Of a stretch of DNA of 45,016 nucleotides, positions 26,665-40,012 are shown piece after piece. The stretch is from an uncultured Acidobacteriota bacterium (GTDB taxonomy: Bacteria; Acidobacteriota; UBA6911; CAINFC01), in assembly GCA_903847975.1 (NCBI GenBank), contig CAINFC010000205.1, positions 1-45,016 on the forward strand, in the 5' to 3' direction. The translations under genes and the position numbers were made by a program. Numbering within the stretch: position 1 is the stretch's first letter; the number at the start of each line of letters is the position of its first letter. Below the pieces are notes generated by a model. The model was not told where the DNA came from, ran no database searches, and saw only the letters and a list, made by a program, of their open reading frames with translations.

Positions 26665-28152
26665 TCAGGCCGGGGCGCCCGCCGTCCAGGGCCGGGCGGC
26701 CAGGAAGGCCCTTAGCCTCCGCAGGCACGCCTCTTTTCCAAGGATTTTCATCAATTCGAAGAGTCCGGGTCCGTCCGTCCGCCCGCTGACTCCCAGGCGG
26801 GTGGGGTGAATGATTTTTCCGGCCCCCAGCCTCCGATCTTCGGCCATCCGGCGCACAACCGATTCGATTGCCTCATGGGAAAATTCCGGAAGCGCTTCCA
26901 GAGAGGCGATCAGTTCCTGGAGCAGCCCTTCCAGATCCGGCGTTTTCAGGCAGTTTTTCAGCCCTTTTTCATCGTACCCGGCGGGGTCGGCGAAAAAATA
27001 GGGTACCTTCTGGGTGATATCCGAAAGCACTTCCAGCCGCTCGCGGAAAAGTCCGGCCATTTCCGCCAGTTCCTCGGCGGAGTATTCCCCCGGAAAGCCG
27101 GGGACCGGATCCAGGAAAGGCCGGCAGAGGGGAAGCAGCGACTCGCCGGACAGGGCCTTGATGTACTGCTGGTTCATCCACTTCAGCTTGGCCATGTCGA
27201 AAATGGCTCCGTGGGAGGAAACCCGGTCCAGATCGAAGAGGGAAACCAGCTCCTCCCGGGAGAAGAGCTCCCGGTCATCCGGCGAGCTCCATCCCAGCAG
27301 GGCCAGGAAGTTCAGGAAGGCCTCCGGCAGGTATCCCTGGTTCTGGTACTCGATCACGCTGGTGGCCCCATGCCGCTTGCTCATCTTGGACCGGTCCGTT
27401 CCCAGGATCATGGGAATGTGTCCGAAGCGCGGCAGCTCCAGCCCCAAAGCCCGGTATATCAGAATCTGCTTCGGTGTATTGGAGATATGGTCTTCGCCGC
27501 GGATCACATCGGAAATCCGCATGTGGAAGTCGTCGACCACCACCGCGAAATTATAGGTGGGAAAGCCGTCGGACTTGACCAGCACCAGGTCGTCCAGCAG
27601 ATCGCTGTTGATGGAGATTTCCCCCTTGCAGGCATCGGTCCAGGAAATCATCTCGCCCGGCTCTACGGCCAGCCTGAGCCGCACCAGGTAGGGCTCGCCG
27701 GAAGCCATCCGCCGGGCGGCTTCCTCCGGGTCGAGATTCCGGCAGCAGCCGTCGTAGCGGGTCTGCAGTCCGGCCTGGGACTGCTGCTCCCGCATGGCTT
27801 CCAGCCGCTCCGCGGAGCAGAAACAAGGGTAGGCCCGGCCCCGCCGCTGCAGCAGGTCGGCCGCCTCCGCATAGGTGTTCATCCGCTGGCTCTGGAAGTA
27901 AGGCCCCACCGGCCCGCCGGCTTCCGGACCCTCATCCCAATCCATTCCGAGCCAGCGAAGGCCGTCCAGGATGGAGCGCGTGAATTCCGGGCGGTTGCGC
28001 TCCTGGTCGGTGTCCTCGATGCGCAGCAGGAACGTCCCCCGGTGATGGCGGGCATAGAGCCAGTTGAAAATCGCGGTGCGGGCGCTGCCCACGTGCAGAT
28101 TGCCGGTCGGGGAAGGGGCAAAACGAACTCGTACGGGCCGGTCGGAAGTCAT
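26665..28152 (-). CDS. gltX: Glutamate--tRNA ligase
   Basis: GltX charges tRNA-Glu with glutamate, and in many bacteria also tRNA-Gln. The 495-residue product has the class I HIGH-type motif in RFAPSPTGNLHVGSARTA, the LLRIEDTDQERN segment, the zinc-site-like cysteines CFCS and CC, and the KMSKS-type motif SKMSKRHG. ATG 28152 has AAGGA 9 nt upstream, 20 nt after the glnS stop. A TTG start at 28197 inside glnS is rejected. Having both gltX and glnS suggests a discriminating GltX and direct tRNA-Gln charging, unless gatCAB exists elsewhere. Confidence 0.96.
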   Translation of the reverse strand: MTSDRPVRVRFAPSPTGNLHVGSARTAIFNWLYARHHRGTFLLRIEDTDQERNRPEFTRSILDGLRWLGMDWDEGPEAGGPVGPYFQSQRMNTYAEAADLLQRRGRAYPCFCSAERLEAMREQQSQAGLQTRYDGCCRNLDPEEAARRMASGEPYLVRLRLAVEPGEMISWTDACKGEISINSDLLDDLVLVKSDGFPTYNFAVVVDDFHMRISDVIRGEDHISNTPKQILIYRALGLELPRFGHIPMILGTDRSKMSKRHGATSVIEYQNQGYLPEAFLNFLALLGWSSPDDRELFSREELVSLFDLDRVSSHGAIFDMAKLKWMNQQYIKALSGESLLPLCRPFLDPVPGFPGEYSAEELAEMAGLFRERLEVLSDITQKVPYFFADPAGYDEKGLKNCLKTPDLEGLLQELIASLEALPEFSHEAIESVVRRMAEDRRLGAGKIIHPTRLGVSGRTDGPGLFELMKILGKEACLRRLRAFLAARPWTAGAPA

Positions 28153-28171
28153 GCGTGTCAATCCTTTTGGC

Positions 28172-29881
<1,710 letters not shown>

Positions 29882-29927: not shown

Positions 29928-30893
29928 TCAGGCGGGCACGAACTGCCGCAGGTAGCGCAGCCCCATGCGAAAGCCGGTTTTAAAGTCCTCGCTGAAATTG
30001 CCGTCGGGAAGGGTTCGCCCGTAGGTCTCGTCCTCGTGCTCGATATTCATCGACCCTTCGTACCCGGCATCCATCAGCACGGTGAACACCTCGGCCCATT
30101 TGATCTGGCCGTAGCCCGGTATGCGGTAGCGCCACCAGCGGGTGCGGTTGGGGGGGGTGATCCCGCAGCGCTTCAGCGTATCCCAGAAGATCTCGGTATC
30201 CTTCAGGTGCATGTTGTATATTTTGTCCATGTAGTCGCGCATGCAGGCAATGGGATCCATGAACTGGCGCACCAGGTGGGAGGCATCAAACTGAATGCCG
30301 ACATAGGGGGAATTCCCGAACCCCTTGAAAAGAGCATCGTAGCCGATGGGTCCGGTGGCCAGGTTGGGCCCGTCGGGCCAGGGTTCCCACAGCAGCCGCA
30401 CTTTGTGCTTTTCGCAGAGCGGAAAATATTTTTCGTTGTACACCCGGATGATTTCGTCGATCTGCTCCTGGAACGGGCGGCCCGGCATGTGGCCGCTCAT
30501 GGTGGAGATGTAGGGCACGCCCATTCTGCCGGCCAGCTCGATGACCTTGCCGAAATAGGTGTGGACCCGGGTCCGCTCGGCCGGGTCGGCGGGGGTGTGG
30601 TTGGCGGTGTAGCCCAGCACCGAGGCTTCCAGGCCGACGCGGTTGATATGCGCCTTGATTTTTTCCAATTCCTCATCGGTGACCGTGGAGGCATCCAGGC
30701 GGCTTCGGGGGGAGGCGGAAAGCTCCAGGCTCTGGAAGCCTTCGGCGGCGGCGAAATCGATATTGGCTTCCGTGTAGCGGCACAGAACTCCGATCTTGGG
30801 CTTCCAGCTTTTCGCCGGAGCGGCCATAGCCCGCGGCGCCACGGTGGCGGCCAGGGGCAGGGCGGCAAGCAACTCTCTTCGGGTAGGGTTCAT
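29928..30893 (-). CDS. Tat-exported sugar isomerase/epimerase-like TIM-barrel protein
   Basis: The 321-residue protein starts at ATG 30893 with AAAGGA 7 nt upstream and a twin-arginine leader ([24 protein letters not shown]). The mature part is an AP-endonuclease-family-2/xylose-isomerase-like barrel: [80 protein letters not shown] and [10 protein letters not shown]. The Glu, Asp and His residues in the last four segments are those expected to hold the metal. It probably interconverts a sugar or cyclic polyol in the periplasm. The LacI regulator upstream and the rhamnose mutarotase beyond support sugar metabolism; the substrate is not shown. Confidence 0.85.
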
Positions 30894-31062
30894 AGGATAA
30901 TCCTTTGTAGCTAAATAGTATTTCCGAAAAAACAATGCGGTTCTTTCGCCGGGCCAAGGCTGGCCTGGCGCGATGAAGGTGGTCTTTCGCAGCGCCGCCC
31001 GCGGCGGAGCGCTTCCGTGTGGGATTCCGTTGGCCTCCTGCGGTTTGCCCACCTCGCCGTGG

Positions 31063-32245: not shown

Positions 32246-32569
32246 ATGAAACGCTATGGAATGATGATCGGCCTCCGGCCGGAAGCCGTCGAAAAATACA
32301 AGGAGTATCATGCCGAAGTGTGGCCGGGGGTGCTGAAGACGATCCGGGAGTGCAACATCCGGAATTACACCATTTTCCTGAAGGACAACCTGCTTTTCGG
32401 ATACTACGAATACCACGGGTCGGACCACCAGGCGGATATGGCCAGGATGGCCGCCTGCCCCAAAACCCGGGAGTGGTGGGCGATCATGGAGCCGATGCAG
32501 CAGCCGCTGGATAATCGCGATCCCGGCGACTGGTGGACGCAGATGGAAGAGGTGTTTCACACGGAGTGA
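32246..32569 (+). CDS. rhaM: L-rhamnose mutarotase
   Basis: RhaM interconverts the alpha and beta anomers of L-rhamnose. The 107-residue protein has the family length (about 104) and pattern: MKRYGMMIGLRPEAVEKYKEYHAEVWPGVLKTI, then IRNYTIFLKDNLLFGYYEYHG and KTREWWAIMEPMQQPL with WWTQMEEVFH at the end. The Y and H of YKEYHA and the WW pair lie in the active-site region. AAGGAG lies 9 nt before ATG 32246; ATG 32198 upstream would add 16 unrelated charged residues. The selenoprotein candidate starts 28 nt after its stop, so the two may be co-transcribed. Confidence 0.92.
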   Translation: MKRYGMMIGLRPEAVEKYKEYHAEVWPGVLKTIRECNIRNYTIFLKDNLLFGYYEYHGSDHQADMARMAACPKTREWWAIMEPMQQPLDNRDPGDWWTQMEEVFHTE

Positions 32570-32597: not shown

Positions 32598-33692
32598 ATG
32601 ACCGTGAAAAGCCGATGGCTTCCTCTCCTTGTCTGGTCGGGAATCGGCCTGCTGGCCGCGGGCCCGCTGCGGGCTGCCCCGGGCGGCTCCGCAGCGCGAG
32701 CGTCCGAGCGCCTGGTGGTGCTGGAAGGGTTTTATAATCCGCTTTGAGGCTACTGCCAGGCTGCCGGTCCGGTAGTCGATCAGCTGGCCGCAGACATGGC
32801 GTCGCAGCCCGTAGTTTTCCTGGAGCAGGACGTCCGCTCCCCGCTCGGCAACCGCCTGGGGCGCTTCTGGGCGGCATTCGGGTTGGCGACGGCGTATTAT
32901 CCGCTCCTTATTGTCGACAGTGGACACCAGGTCACCAGCGGCTACTCCTACGACCTGTACAGCCGTTACCAGAACATGGTCCTTGCGGAACTGCCCCGGC
33001 CCCCCCAGGCGGAGCTGCAGCTCTTCACCTGGCAGACCGGGAACCGCATTCATTTTTTTGCCAAGGCGACCAACCTGACCGGGACGGCGCTCAGCGCGAC
33101 GCGCAACGGCGCCTCCTTCAGCGCCCTGGTTTATGAGGATATCCATTATGGCGTCACCTCACGTTTTGTGCGTGCCGTGGTGGATAGGCCCGTTTCCTCG
33201 GAGATGGCTCCCGGCGGAACTGCCGCTTTCAGCGGTCAGACCCCGGAGCTCACTTCCGTGGATTGGGCCCGAACGCACACCGTCGGGCTGATCGATTATC
33301 GGCCGGCGGGGAACACCGGTCCCTATGACATGCTCCAGGCGGTGCGGGGGCTGGCGCCCACCTTGACCCTCCATCCCCGGGAGCTGGTCTTTCTCGTTTC
33401 GCCGGATTCCGCCCAGGTGCCACCTCAGGCCGTCGCTCTGGAAGGTCCGGCTGTCTTTTCCTGGACCGCATCCTGGACGGCCCCGTGGATTGCGGTGAGC
33501 CCGGCGAGCGGCCCGATGTCGGCCGCGCCTTCGGTGACGGTCCTTTCCGCCGCCTTGTCGCCCGGGTGGCAGGCAGCCCAGGTAACCATGACCGCCTCGG
33601 ACGGCGACGGTTTTTCCCTGACGCAGGTTCTGGAAGTGCGGGCTCTGCTGACCGGGCTGAGCCGGGTCTATCTGCCCCTGCTGGCCAGGTGA
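32598..33692 (+). CDS. Probable exported thioredoxin-like selenoprotein (UGA at codon 50)
   Basis: ATG 32598 has GAGG 7 nt upstream and opens a signal peptide (MTVKSRWLPLLVWSGIGLLAA, cleavage near LRAAP). The frame meets one TGA at 32745-32747 and then runs on to a stop at 33690-33692, for 364 residues if UGA is read as Sec. The UGA is the first position of a redox motif, U50-G-Y-C53, placed as in thioredoxins: after strand ERLVVLEGFYN and before helix QAAGPVVDQLAADM. A later YYPLLIVDSG resembles the cis-Pro strand. A beta region with FVRAVVDRPV recalls Omp28-related proteins. The end (about 250-355) is BACON-like (SWTAPWIAVSPASGPM), closing with VYLPLLAR. A SECIS-like hairpin follows the UGA. 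A plain nonsense mutation is the alternative. No selA, selB, selC or selD is in the window. Confidence 0.82.
32759..32777 (+). promoter_or_regulatory. Bacterial SECIS-like hairpin
   Basis: Eleven bases separate the UGA from the stem GGCUGCC (32759-32765), loop GGUCC (32766-32770) and closing arm GGUAGUC (32771-32777). All seven pairs form, two of them G-U. The E. coli fdhF SECIS upper stem-loop likewise begins 11 nt after its UGA and has loop GGUCU. The loop lies 18 nt after the UGA, inside the 16-37 nt range usual for bacterial SECIS elements. Confidence 0.78.
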
Positions 33693-36532: not shown

Positions 36533-39500
36533 ATGCCATATAGACAACGAGTTGTCTGGCTTCTGCTTTTCTGTATTTTGGAGGTCGGTGCCCAGGACCG
36601 TATGTCCCCGACTATTCCCGGCCCATGGGTAAACCGGCTGGCGGGACAATTGATATATTTCTTCGAAGAAGGGGATACCAGCCCAAGAGGGAACTGGAAA
36701 ACCTACCTGGCAATTACCAACAATTCGCTCGACACCTTCGTGGCCGTGCACTACCAGATTTATTTCCAGCAATCCGGAGTGGGCCTTACGGAGTGGCTCG
36801 ACTATGTGGACATTCTCACCCCGTGTCAGACCTTCCAGATCGATCCGGCGGAAATCCGGCTTACCTCTCTGGCTTATTCGCCAAACGCGCTTCGGGGTTC
36901 GGCGACCAATGGCCGCTTTGTCATGACGGCTACTCCCATCGATCCGCAGAACGAGCCGTCAGACATGCGCGCGATTGCCTTTAATTACCTCAGCGGGCAG
37001 ATCAACACCACCCACCTGGGAATCGGTTCCACCTTCACCATGAATGCCATCGGGCGCATGGCGGTTGATGCGTTTGGGTCCCCCGTCGCTCATACCAGCA
37101 CCGCATATGACTACGGCCGCGACCAGATGCCTGCCAACGTGCTATATGCCACCGGCAACCTCATCGATGGCACCACCCGGCTGTTTCAAAAGATAAGGCC
37201 GGACACGCTGATCCTGGCGTCTTTTCTGCCCACTTCCGCTGCCTCCGGAAAGGTCACCCAGGGAATGCCCTTCGGCAACCGGCTTTCTTTCCTGGCATTT
37301 AAAGACAATTACAATTTGTATCGGTTGGAGGAAGATGCCGCCACCGTCACGCCGAATGCCTACAATGGAAGGATCCCCTCCTCCCTTTTGACCGGGGCGC
37401 CGTTACGCGTATCGGGATTAACCGAATTTACAGTCGCTCCGCCGACGCCGGTAACCGGAAACTTTCCCAACCTCTTCGGCACCGCCGATACCCGCTCCCT
37501 GGAGCTGAGCGGCGGGTGGCTGCTCAACCAGGTGGTTCCCGGCAGTTCCGACGTCAACCTGGTCGCCTGGTTTTCACAAAACGGACCCTCCGGCAATGGG
37601 GGAGATTACCTGATCGGCGTGGGGACCCGGATAGAAACTTCCGGCGCCTTATACGCGGTAGATCCTTTCCTGGGAAACATGAGACGGGTGCCTGCCGGCA
37701 TGTTTACCCAGGGTACGCCCCAGGCGGAGGTCGGGCGGGCTTCCCCGGAGGGGCCGCAGTTTCAACACACCCTCACCAGAGACCTGGCGGTGATGGAAAC
37801 GGAGGTAACCCGCCAGATGTGGACCAATTTGAAGGCCGTACAACCGAATTTGCCGACGGATCCGACCAATACGGCCGCCGGAGCGGGTGCCGATTGCCCG
37901 GTGCAGAACCTCACCTGGTACCAGGCGGTTCTGTTCGCCAACCTGTTATCCAGGCAGATGGGGCTGAACGCCGCTTATTACAAGGATTCGCAGTGGAGCC
38001 AGCCGGTCGATATCGGAAACTATGCCGCAGAACCGATTTACTTCAATTACAATGCCGACGGTTACCGCCTGCCGTCGGAAGGGGAGTGGGAGTATTTCGC
38101 CAGGGCCGGAAAGACCGGGCCCTTTTCCGTGGAGGAACCGGCTTATGGTGCGGGCACCTACCAGTCCTGTACACCGGCCGTATTGACCGCCCTGGAAAAA
38201 GTCGCCTGGTTTTGCGCCAACTCGACTTCGGCATCCAGTGCCGTTGGCGCCAAGTCCGCGAATCCCTGGGGGCTGAAGGATATTCACGGAAACGTGGGAG
38301 AGTGGTGCTGGGACTGGTCGGGCGCCTATCCCGCTGTCGCCCAGACCAATTACCTGGGGCCGGCTGCGGGGACCAGCCGGGTCTTTCGGGACTCGGGATG
38401 GAACAGCCAGCCGGTGGATATCCGCTCCGGCAGTCGCGGCTCGGCGGGCCCGTCGAGTACCGGCAGCACCCGGGGCTTCCGCCTGGTAAGATCGATTGCG
38501 GTTTCAACGCCGGGACAGTCTGCGGTTCCCAAATCGAAGGACGTCTGGCCGCGGCAGGGACTCGACAATGTGACGAATGAAGTGACCCTGACCGGCAGCG
38601 GGTTTGTGGATGGAGCCAATGCCAGTTTGAGGAACGCAGCGGTCAGCGGTTCTTCGAAAGGGCCTGTCCGCTGGAGTTCCAAGGCCAACCCGGCCTATGC
38701 TCTGCCCCAGTCCGCTCAGTTGAGCGTCACCCTGCAGACCACCTTTGTGAGCCCGCGCGAATTGCGGGTCGTCGTCCCGAACGGATTGATTCCCGGTAAA
38801 TACGAAATCGACGTGACCAATCCGGATAACAGCCAAACCTCCGCGGCCGCCTCCTACACCGTTCTGGACAGCCAATCGCCTACCTTGAACGATCTTTACG
38901 GAAACAGCTTTGGGCTCTGGACCTCGCCGATGAATCCCGCGACCGGAACGGCGGTCTCCCTGGGCCTTATTGTCCATCGTACCGGAGGGACCAGCACACT
39001 GAGTAACATCGAGGTGAGCTTCCGGCTGAGCAGCTGCGCGAGCGGGGATTTGCTGGGCACCGGCCTGGTAAGCGTGCTTGGTCCCAACGGCACCGCCAGT
39101 ACCACCGGGATCACCTGGACTCCCAATGCCACCGGAAACACGACGATCTGTGCCGTGATTGATCCCCGGGGTGTCATCAGCGAGAGCTCCAAGGACAACA
39201 ACCAGATCTCCAGTTCCTTCAACGTGCTTCCGGTCATGCCGGACCGGGTGGCCCCGCATGTGGATAGCTTTGCCGTTCAGAAGGGGGCCCTGTCGACGGC
39301 CATCCTGGATGTCATCCTGGACACCTCGGCAAGCGATCCGGCGCCGAGCTCCGGTATCGCGGCGCTCTATTTTCAGGAATTCGAATTTCATCCGGGGGCC
39401 CGATACTGGATTCCGATTCACCAGTCTGAAAAATGGGAGCCCTATTCCGCGTCTTCTGCGGACTATTCCTGGACACTGGTTCCCTTTGTGGGGCTGCACC

Positions 39501-40012
39501 ACCTTCAAGTCTGGGCGCTTGATTATGCCGGCAACATTTCTCTGTTCCCTTACAAGGCAGCGATCAATTATATTCCGGCCAGCGATCTCATCGAGCGCCA
39601 GCAGGTACGCATTTACCGGCCGCAGAAATTAAAAGCAGGCCAGACGCTTACAGCCATCCTGACACCCGTCTGGGGGGATCCGGATCTCTATATCTGGCCT
39701 CCGGGCAGCACGGCTTCGATCAGCAACACCCGCCCGCCGTGGGTCAGCAACCTGGCCAGCGGAACGGACGAAATCAGCATTGCCGTTCCGATCGAAGGGG
39801 CCTATCAGGTGGAAGTGCACGGCAATACCCGCGCCCAGTATCGGCTGATAATCCACGTCGGCAATGAGGCGCCCGGCTCCACCGGCAACTCCGGGGAAGG
39901 GAAGGTCAAGGCCGGTGCGCCGCTGGTTTCTCCCGACAATGAGCCGGATAACCAGGTCAATGTGCCGACGGTGGAGCGCTGGGCTCTTCGGCTGCCGTTG
40001 ATCCTGCGGTGA
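36533..40012 (+). CDS. Large secreted protein with FGE-like, TIG-like, CARDB-like and PPC-like domains
   Basis: The 1159-residue protein has a signal peptide (MPYRQRVVWLLLFCILEVGAQ) and a mosaic layout. Residues 1-385 match the preceding paralogue. About 390-655 is an FGE/SUMF1-type domain (RVPAGMFTQGTP, MWTNLKAV, YRLPSEGEWEYFARAG, GLKDIHGNVGEWCWDW, GFRLVR). About 665-780 resembles an IPT/TIG domain, about 790-910 a CARDB domain, and about 1020-1100 a PPC domain (KAGQTLTAILTPVWGDPDLYIWPPG). It closes with LRLPLILR. The stretch before GFRLVR (GWNSQPVDIRSGSRGSAG) lacks the cysteine pair of true formylglycine-generating enzymes, so it is unlikely to oxidise cysteine; a binding role or another SUMF1-fold activity is more likely. 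Confidence 0.85.
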   Translation: MPYRQRVVWLLLFCILEVGAQDRMSPTIPGPWVNRLAGQLIYFFEEGDTSPRGNWKTYLAITNNSLDTFVAVHYQIYFQQSGVGLTEWLDYVDILTPCQTFQIDPAEIRLTSLAYSPNALRGSATNGRFVMTATPIDPQNEPSDMRAIAFNYLSGQINTTHLGIGSTFTMNAIGRMAVDAFGSPVAHTSTAYDYGRDQMPANVLYATGNLIDGTTRLFQKIRPDTLILASFLPTSAASGKVTQGMPFGNRLSFLAFKDNYNLYRLEEDAATVTPNAYNGRIPSSLLTGAPLRVSGLTEFTVAPPTPVTGNFPNLFGTADTRSLELSGGWLLNQVVPGSSDVNLVAWFSQNGPSGNGGDYLIGVGTRIETSGALYAVDPFLGNMRRVPAGMFTQGTPQAEVGRASPEGPQFQHTLTRDLAVMETEVTRQMWTNLKAVQPNLPTDPTNTAAGAGADCPVQNLTWYQAVLFANLLSRQMGLNAAYYKDSQWSQPVDIGNYAAEPIYFNYNADGYRLPSEGEWEYFARAGKTGPFSVEEPAYGAGTYQSCTPAVLTALEKVAWFCANSTSASSAVGAKSANPWGLKDIHGNVGEWCWDWSGAYPAVAQTNYLGPAAGTSRVFRDSGWNSQPVDIRSGSRGSAGPSSTGSTRGFRLVRSIAVSTPGQSAVPKSKDVWPRQGLDNVTNEVTLTGSGFVDGANASLRNAAVSGSSKGPVRWSSKANPAYALPQSAQLSVTLQTTFVSPRELRVVVPNGLIPGKYEIDVTNPDNSQTSAAASYTVLDSQSPTLNDLYGNSFGLWTSPMNPATGTAVSLGLIVHRTGGTSTLSNIEVSFRLSSCASGDLLGTGLVSVLGPNGTASTTGITWTPNATGNTTICAVIDPRGVISESSKDNNQISSSFNVLPVMPDRVAPHVDSFAVQKGALSTAILDVILDTSASDPAPSSGIAALYFQEFEFHPGARYWIPIHQSEKWEPYSASSADYSWTLVPFVGLHHLQVWALDYAGNISLFPYKAAINYIPASDLIERQQVRIYRPQKLKAGQTLTAILTPVWGDPDLYIWPPGSTASISNTRPPWVSNLASGTDEISIAVPIEGAYQVEVHGNTRAQYRLIIHVGNEAPGSTGNSGEGKVKAGAPLVSPDNEPDNQVNVPTVERWALRLPLILR

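Follow-up and report, generated by a model that had tools for sequence, protein, structure and literature searches.

One gene of the window (the whole stretch of DNA analysed here, 45,016 nt in length) very probably makes an exported redox protein in which an internal stop codon is read as selenocysteine (Sec). Specifically, we put at roughly 95% the probability that its product is an exported selenoprotein with hairpin-directed Sec at residue 50, in which a thioredoxin fold carrying the motif U-G-Y-C is combined with Omp28-related and BACON-like domains, and which has a redox role outside the cytoplasm. The Sec assignment is very well supported by computation because the support covers the conserved in-frame UGA, the exchange of Sec and Cys at this position, a hairpin that is present in 16 genes and more conserved than their protein coding would require, and the Sec machinery, with selB found in seven genomes.

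An in-frame UGA and the domains around it

The gene occupies positions 32598-33692 of the plus strand as one 364-codon frame whose sole interruption is a TGA at 32745-32747. An ATG at 32598 opens 49 sense codons, the TGA is codon 50, another 314 sense codons follow, and the gene terminates with a TGA of its own at 33690-33692. The initial annotation had thus placed the internal TGA correctly but described the part ending in it as 50 codons long; its statements that the same frame continues for 314 codons, and that the TGA replaces the first residue of a thioredoxin-type CxxC (here UxxC, U-G-Y-C, residues 50-53), agree with the sequence. Since TGA ends neighbouring genes (for example 26665-28197 and 29928-31052) as well as the window gene itself, being an ordinary stop here as previously claimed, a recoded genome is not the explanation. 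Gene callers would split the gene at the UGA and lose both the signal peptide and the active site. The features discussed below are the following.

32246-32569, plus strand: L-rhamnose mutarotase-like upstream neighbour (TIGR02625, E 1e-13, below cut-off), ending 28 nt before the selenoprotein start
32598-33692, plus strand: selenoprotein gene, 364 residues on read-through, with relatives that align on both sides of the TGA
32598-32681, plus strand: putative signal peptide region, about residues 1-28, read by eye from a charged start, a hydrophobic core (LLVWSGIGLLAAG) and an AxA-like site, LRAAP
32706-32980, plus strand: thioredoxin-like domain, about residues 37-127, with UxxC at 50-53 and invariant Pro102 (Pfam, PDB profile match, invariant C and P columns)
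32745-32747, plus strand: UGA codon very probably read as Sec, residue 50 (of the 27 family members, 16 have TGA here and 4 have TGC; the genome encodes Sec machinery)
32759-32777, plus strand: bSECIS hairpin, beginning 11 nt downstream of the UGA, with the loop GGUCC on a 7-bp stem; conserved and in line with published bSECIS rules
32981-33362, plus strand: second domain, equivalent of the Omp28-related C-terminal domain (the hhalign match spans the thioredoxin domain and continues through most of these positions)
33363-33659, plus strand: BACON-like beta domain (BACON_2 below cut-off; residues 225-350 match repeats in the phylum)
33666-33689, plus strand: C-terminal VYLPLLAR, read from the sequence; the relative L049 ends with the similar VFVPLVMMAGQ

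The N-terminus, again read by eye, combines a hydrophobic stretch with an AxA-like site (LLAAGPLRAAP), and a hydrophobic leader also starts the relatives L025, L049 and L038. Pfam Thioredoxin (PF00085) matches the window protein at 20.6 bits (E 4.6e-4), below its gathering cut-off of 23.5, and a profile of the family matches thioredoxin 6zom in the PDB at E 4.5e-5. Two columns of the family alignment are invariant, namely the Cys that closes the motif and a Pro some 50 residues further; the latter, Pro102, is probably the counterpart of the thioredoxin cis-proline. An AlphaFold model built from a two-sequence alignment had a mean pLDDT of 36.

The Omp28-like domain proposed earlier was borne out at the profile level. 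Comparison of the family with Omp28-related proteins by hhalign gave 98.2% (E 5.6e-14) over 170 columns, extending past the thioredoxin domain, and a second set of Omp28-related proteins gave 98.7%. Of the BACON-like domain, likewise proposed in the initial annotation, a Pfam BACON_2 match can be recovered (16.7 bits, E 0.0072), but it is weak and below the cut-off of 25; at E 1e-9 to 1e-4, residues 225-350 also match repeats that large proteins of the phylum contain. This tail is absent in L049 and L038, and in the members from G300, G380, G463 and G466 the thioredoxin part lies about 300-430 codons into a longer frame. The terminal VYLPLLAR (33666-33689) is possibly a surface-sorting motif. 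A similar short tail, RLPLILR, is carried by a second window protein (36533-40009), and the two tails may perhaps represent a C-terminal sorting motif.

Conservation of the UGA, its hairpin and the Sec machinery

A search of the read-through protein against 297 relatives returned a 41% identical protein from another bacterial family, with a TGA inside, together with a Cys paralogue from the window genome; scanning genome contigs added a third relative, L049 (in a record titled Anaerolineae bacterium), with 43% identity and again a TGA. Two profile searches, one of 396 genomes of the phylum and the other of 149 genomes of the class richest in matches, brought the family to 27 members. These come from several bacterial families, share 29-48% identity with the window protein over the core and are conserved on both sides of the motif. 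The selenoprotein family spans distantly related bacteria. No relatives were found in viral contigs or plasmids.

At the UGA position, 16 members have TGA, four have Cys (TGC) and seven have Gly, so that homologues with Sec or Cys at residue 50, which the initial annotation had named as a test of its reading, do exist. The motif reads UGYC, UPSC, UGPC, UTIC, UPIC, UPVC, UPTC or UGVC in 14 of the 16 TGA genes, and CGHC, CPVC, CTVC or CPAC in the four Cys homologues. Because seven relatives carry Gly, the site cannot be indispensable throughout the family. The Cys (CGHC) paralogue of the window genome, which sits on a long branch, is encoded on the minus strand of another contig (L038:1465-2262, G000 C81) and is flanked by NAD-kinase-like and TruA-like genes, names that we assigned from reading the sequences.

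Downstream of the window UGA, the 5′ arm GGCTGCC (32759-32765), the loop GGTCC (32766-32770) and the 3′ arm GGTAGTC (32771-32777) form all seven stem pairs, and the 19-nt hairpin has a fold energy of -9.9 kcal/mol; a 7-bp stem with a GGUCC loop 11 nt past the UGA had indeed been described before. Among the TGA triplets of the window (1034, counting both strands), only the site in this gene combined seven of seven pairs at 11 nt with a loop beginning in GG. The upper stem of the E. coli fdhF SECIS likewise begins 11 nt after the UGA and its loop starts with GGU; its stem sequence is unrelated and its host protein is a formate dehydrogenase. An Rfam search of the window site gave no match above chance. 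Published bSECIS rules call for a loop of 3-9 nt, a stem of 4-16 bp, a G in the first two loop positions, a distance of 16-37 nt from the UGA and an MFE of at most -7.5 (PMC13188914), and the window hairpin agrees with them (7 bp, 5-nt loop, GG, 18 nt from UGA to loop, -9.9 kcal/mol).

In each of the 16 TGA genes a hairpin follows the UGA at a distance of exactly 11 nt, and its loop opens with GG; pairing is complete (7/7) in 13 of them and 6/7 in three. As a coding null, synonymous codons were redrawn 20,000 times per gene according to each gene's own usage. The TGA genes form 109 of 112 pairs, compared to a null mean of 82.9 and a null maximum of 97 across the 20,000 shuffles, a comparison that gives no clean probability since the 16 hairpins are not independent (the genes are related, and several that resemble the one in G271 are near copies). 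For single TGA genes, the shuffle P is about 0.04-0.4, and part of the stem is favoured by conserved Ala-Gly codons. Among six diverse members, all 42 cells pair, with three of the seven pairs changed on both sides. Hairpin pairs in the four Cys genes are at or below the synonymous-codon null, without excess. Computation thus supports conservation of the hairpin beyond protein coding. The Gly gene of G356 forms 6/7 pairs and was considered as a candidate for a fossil SECIS, an idea that was dropped since 43% of the synonymous shuffles pair equally well.

The genome that holds the window (contig 205) is an 8.13-Mb draft, 99.1% complete and 1.8% contaminated. It encodes selA (544 bits), selB (343.7) and selD (357.7), each over its curated cut-off, along with a tRNA-Sec (77.1 bits) that ARAGORN also calls as tRNA-SeC with anticodon UCA; the Sec machinery that the initial annotation had suggested looking for is therefore present. 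Similarly, selB exceeds the cut-off in six further member genomes (G271, that of L049, G374, G300, G380 and G356) and hence in 7/7 member genomes examined, all of these being drafts in many contigs and probably mostly metagenome-assembled.

These data bear on two other readings of the TGA. A Cys-type thioredoxin gene might have decayed through a TGC-to-TGA change into a pseudogene or a truncated protein restarting at ATG 32796, where a 298-aa ORF does begin inside the window gene, and a Cys paralogue (CGHC) does exist in the same genome. However, 15 other genomes have TGA at this codon, in genes that are 35-48% identical and keep the frame open before and after it, an agreement that also removes the read error that the initial annotation had wished to see checked. 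Conservation of the hairpin beyond coding points the same way, and a protein started at 32796 would have neither signal peptide nor first strand nor active site; decay is already refuted by this conservation, and we give it next to no weight. Alternatively, the TGA could be read as Trp or Cys, through a changed code or a near-cognate suppressor, and insertion of Cys would be chemically sensible as it is standard in four homologues. Yet TGA terminates the window gene and its neighbours, the Sec machinery of the genome is complete and includes a tRNA-Sec with anticodon UCA, and the SECIS hairpin accompanies exactly the UGA genes, making this reading highly improbable.

With Sec at residue 50 as the preferred reading, SelB and Sec-tRNA(UCA) would bind the hairpin just 3′ of the UGA at 32745, leading to Sec insertion. 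To judge from the motif, the Sec50 selenolate would then attack a substrate disulfide (or an oxidised thiol) outside the cytoplasm, and Cys53 would resolve the mixed selenosulfide. Export, redox direction, electron donor and substrate all belong to the inferred part of this scheme, in which the protein would act as a thiol-disulfide reductase or isomerase and its C-terminal domains would anchor it or position it on a surface or glycan substrate.

Relation to described selenoproteins

An Omp28-related UxxC selenoprotein is already described, so the kind is not without precedent. GOS_C was first reported as a thioredoxin-like protein with UxxC (Zhang & Gladyshev 2008, PMC2398784), and the NCBIfam model NF045500, named Omp28-related selenoprotein, is entered as GOS_C in a published selenoprotein list (PMC13188914). 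The initial annotation, which knew of no described selenoprotein with this architecture, has to be qualified in that respect, although the window protein is unmatched by the model: it gives no match at E ≤ 10, and a search of its own genome with the model did not pick up the window gene. All 27 members score far below the NF045500 cut-off of 200 bits, two of them matching at E about 0.06, and the cut-off was reached in none of the 396 genomes of the phylum.

We therefore have to weigh whether this is a real selenoprotein but merely an unrecognized member of NF045500 (GOS_C), with nothing new to it. Both share UxxC and, as far as sequence profiles tell, a thioredoxin-like fold, as well as a superfamily, judging by profile comparison with the Omp28-related proteins of the phylum, and the two weak matches at E about 0.06 would fit. 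Against membership stand the failure of the window protein and of all 27 members to approach the model as just described, and the tree, in which the 27 members form a clade apart from the Omp28-related proteins of the phylum (support 100/99, with a long-branch warning). The window family further differs in its BACON-like tail and in having Sec, Cys and Gly variants. We consider simple membership unlikely, and regard the window family as a new family or a deep subfamily of a known kind.

Other relatives of known type differ as well. Thioredoxin/PDI selenoproteins (PF00085, UxxC) are in the published list (PMC13188914) and resemble the window protein, with its predicted thioredoxin fold, in having UxxC in such a fold, with Sec in place of the attacking Cys; however, the match covers only about 35-45 residues around the motif, below the Pfam gathering cut-off, and the window protein has a leader peptide and a further domain in addition. 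Omp28 family outer membrane lipoproteins (NF033782) and Omp28-related proteins share the combination of a thioredoxin and a C-terminal domain with CxxC in the same place, but the Omp28-related proteins of this phylum mostly have Cys and are about 17% identical to the window family. No Pfam or NCBIfam family model searched covers the window family, no entry of the 119-family prokaryotic selenoprotein list (PMC13188914) was matched to the window protein, and a literature search joining selenoprotein with Omp28 found nothing. Within Pfam, NCBIfam and the literature searched, the family looks new, as do its BACON-like tail and its spread over Sec, Cys and Gly.

Sec is used by Omp28-related exported proteins in several separate lineages. 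A second exported TGA family, GEYFTNLF-U-TSCATTGPVVEQ, occurs at L117:1549 (G466 C220), L118:1549 (G465 C12) and L119:1549 (G380 C118); it is more clearly Omp28-like, carries a hairpin of its own (GACCACGGGNCCCGTGGTC) that follows the UGA at a similar distance, and matches NF045500 only weakly (E about 0.004-0.05). Another Sec lineage is represented by an Omp28-related protein whose motif, KFTSTN-U-PNC, contains a TGA (L140:1537-1539, G157 C134).

Sec, Cys and Gly variants and their gene neighbourhoods

The family tree requires three separate changes to account for its four Cys members, and the Gly members form one group (support 94/89 and 93/91 in trees with or without the Omp28-related outgroup). 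The deep order of this tree allows only a tentative reading of the direction in which Sec and Cys were exchanged. One could propose that Sec was the founding state, that Cys took its place independently three or more times, and that a single clade, whose gene accompanies MauE/DoxX-like and DsbG-like genes, exchanged it for Gly; the family would then mark an undescribed selenium-dependent extracytoplasmic thiol-redox pathway; we see this as possible but would not favour it. The natural Sec/Cys/Gly series at one active site offers a test of what selenium adds to an exported thiol oxidoreductase.

No operon partner is common to all Sec members. The rhamnose mutarotase-like gene upstream of the window gene is not a conserved neighbour of the family and says little on function. 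In four genomes, genes of the Gly clade adjoin those for a DsbG-like thioredoxin and a membrane protein of MauE/DoxX-like type, which places this branch in a thiol-redox setting. These Gly-type loci (L087, L086, L124 and L126, in G356, G374, G495 and G459) form a conserved block comprising a TPR and probable beta-barrel protein (recognized by eye), the MauE/DoxX-like protein, the DsbG-like protein, which weakly matches the Rcas_1661 family, and the GxxC protein. Downstream of the Sec members in L084 and L120, too, a gene related to the one for the TPR/barrel protein is present.
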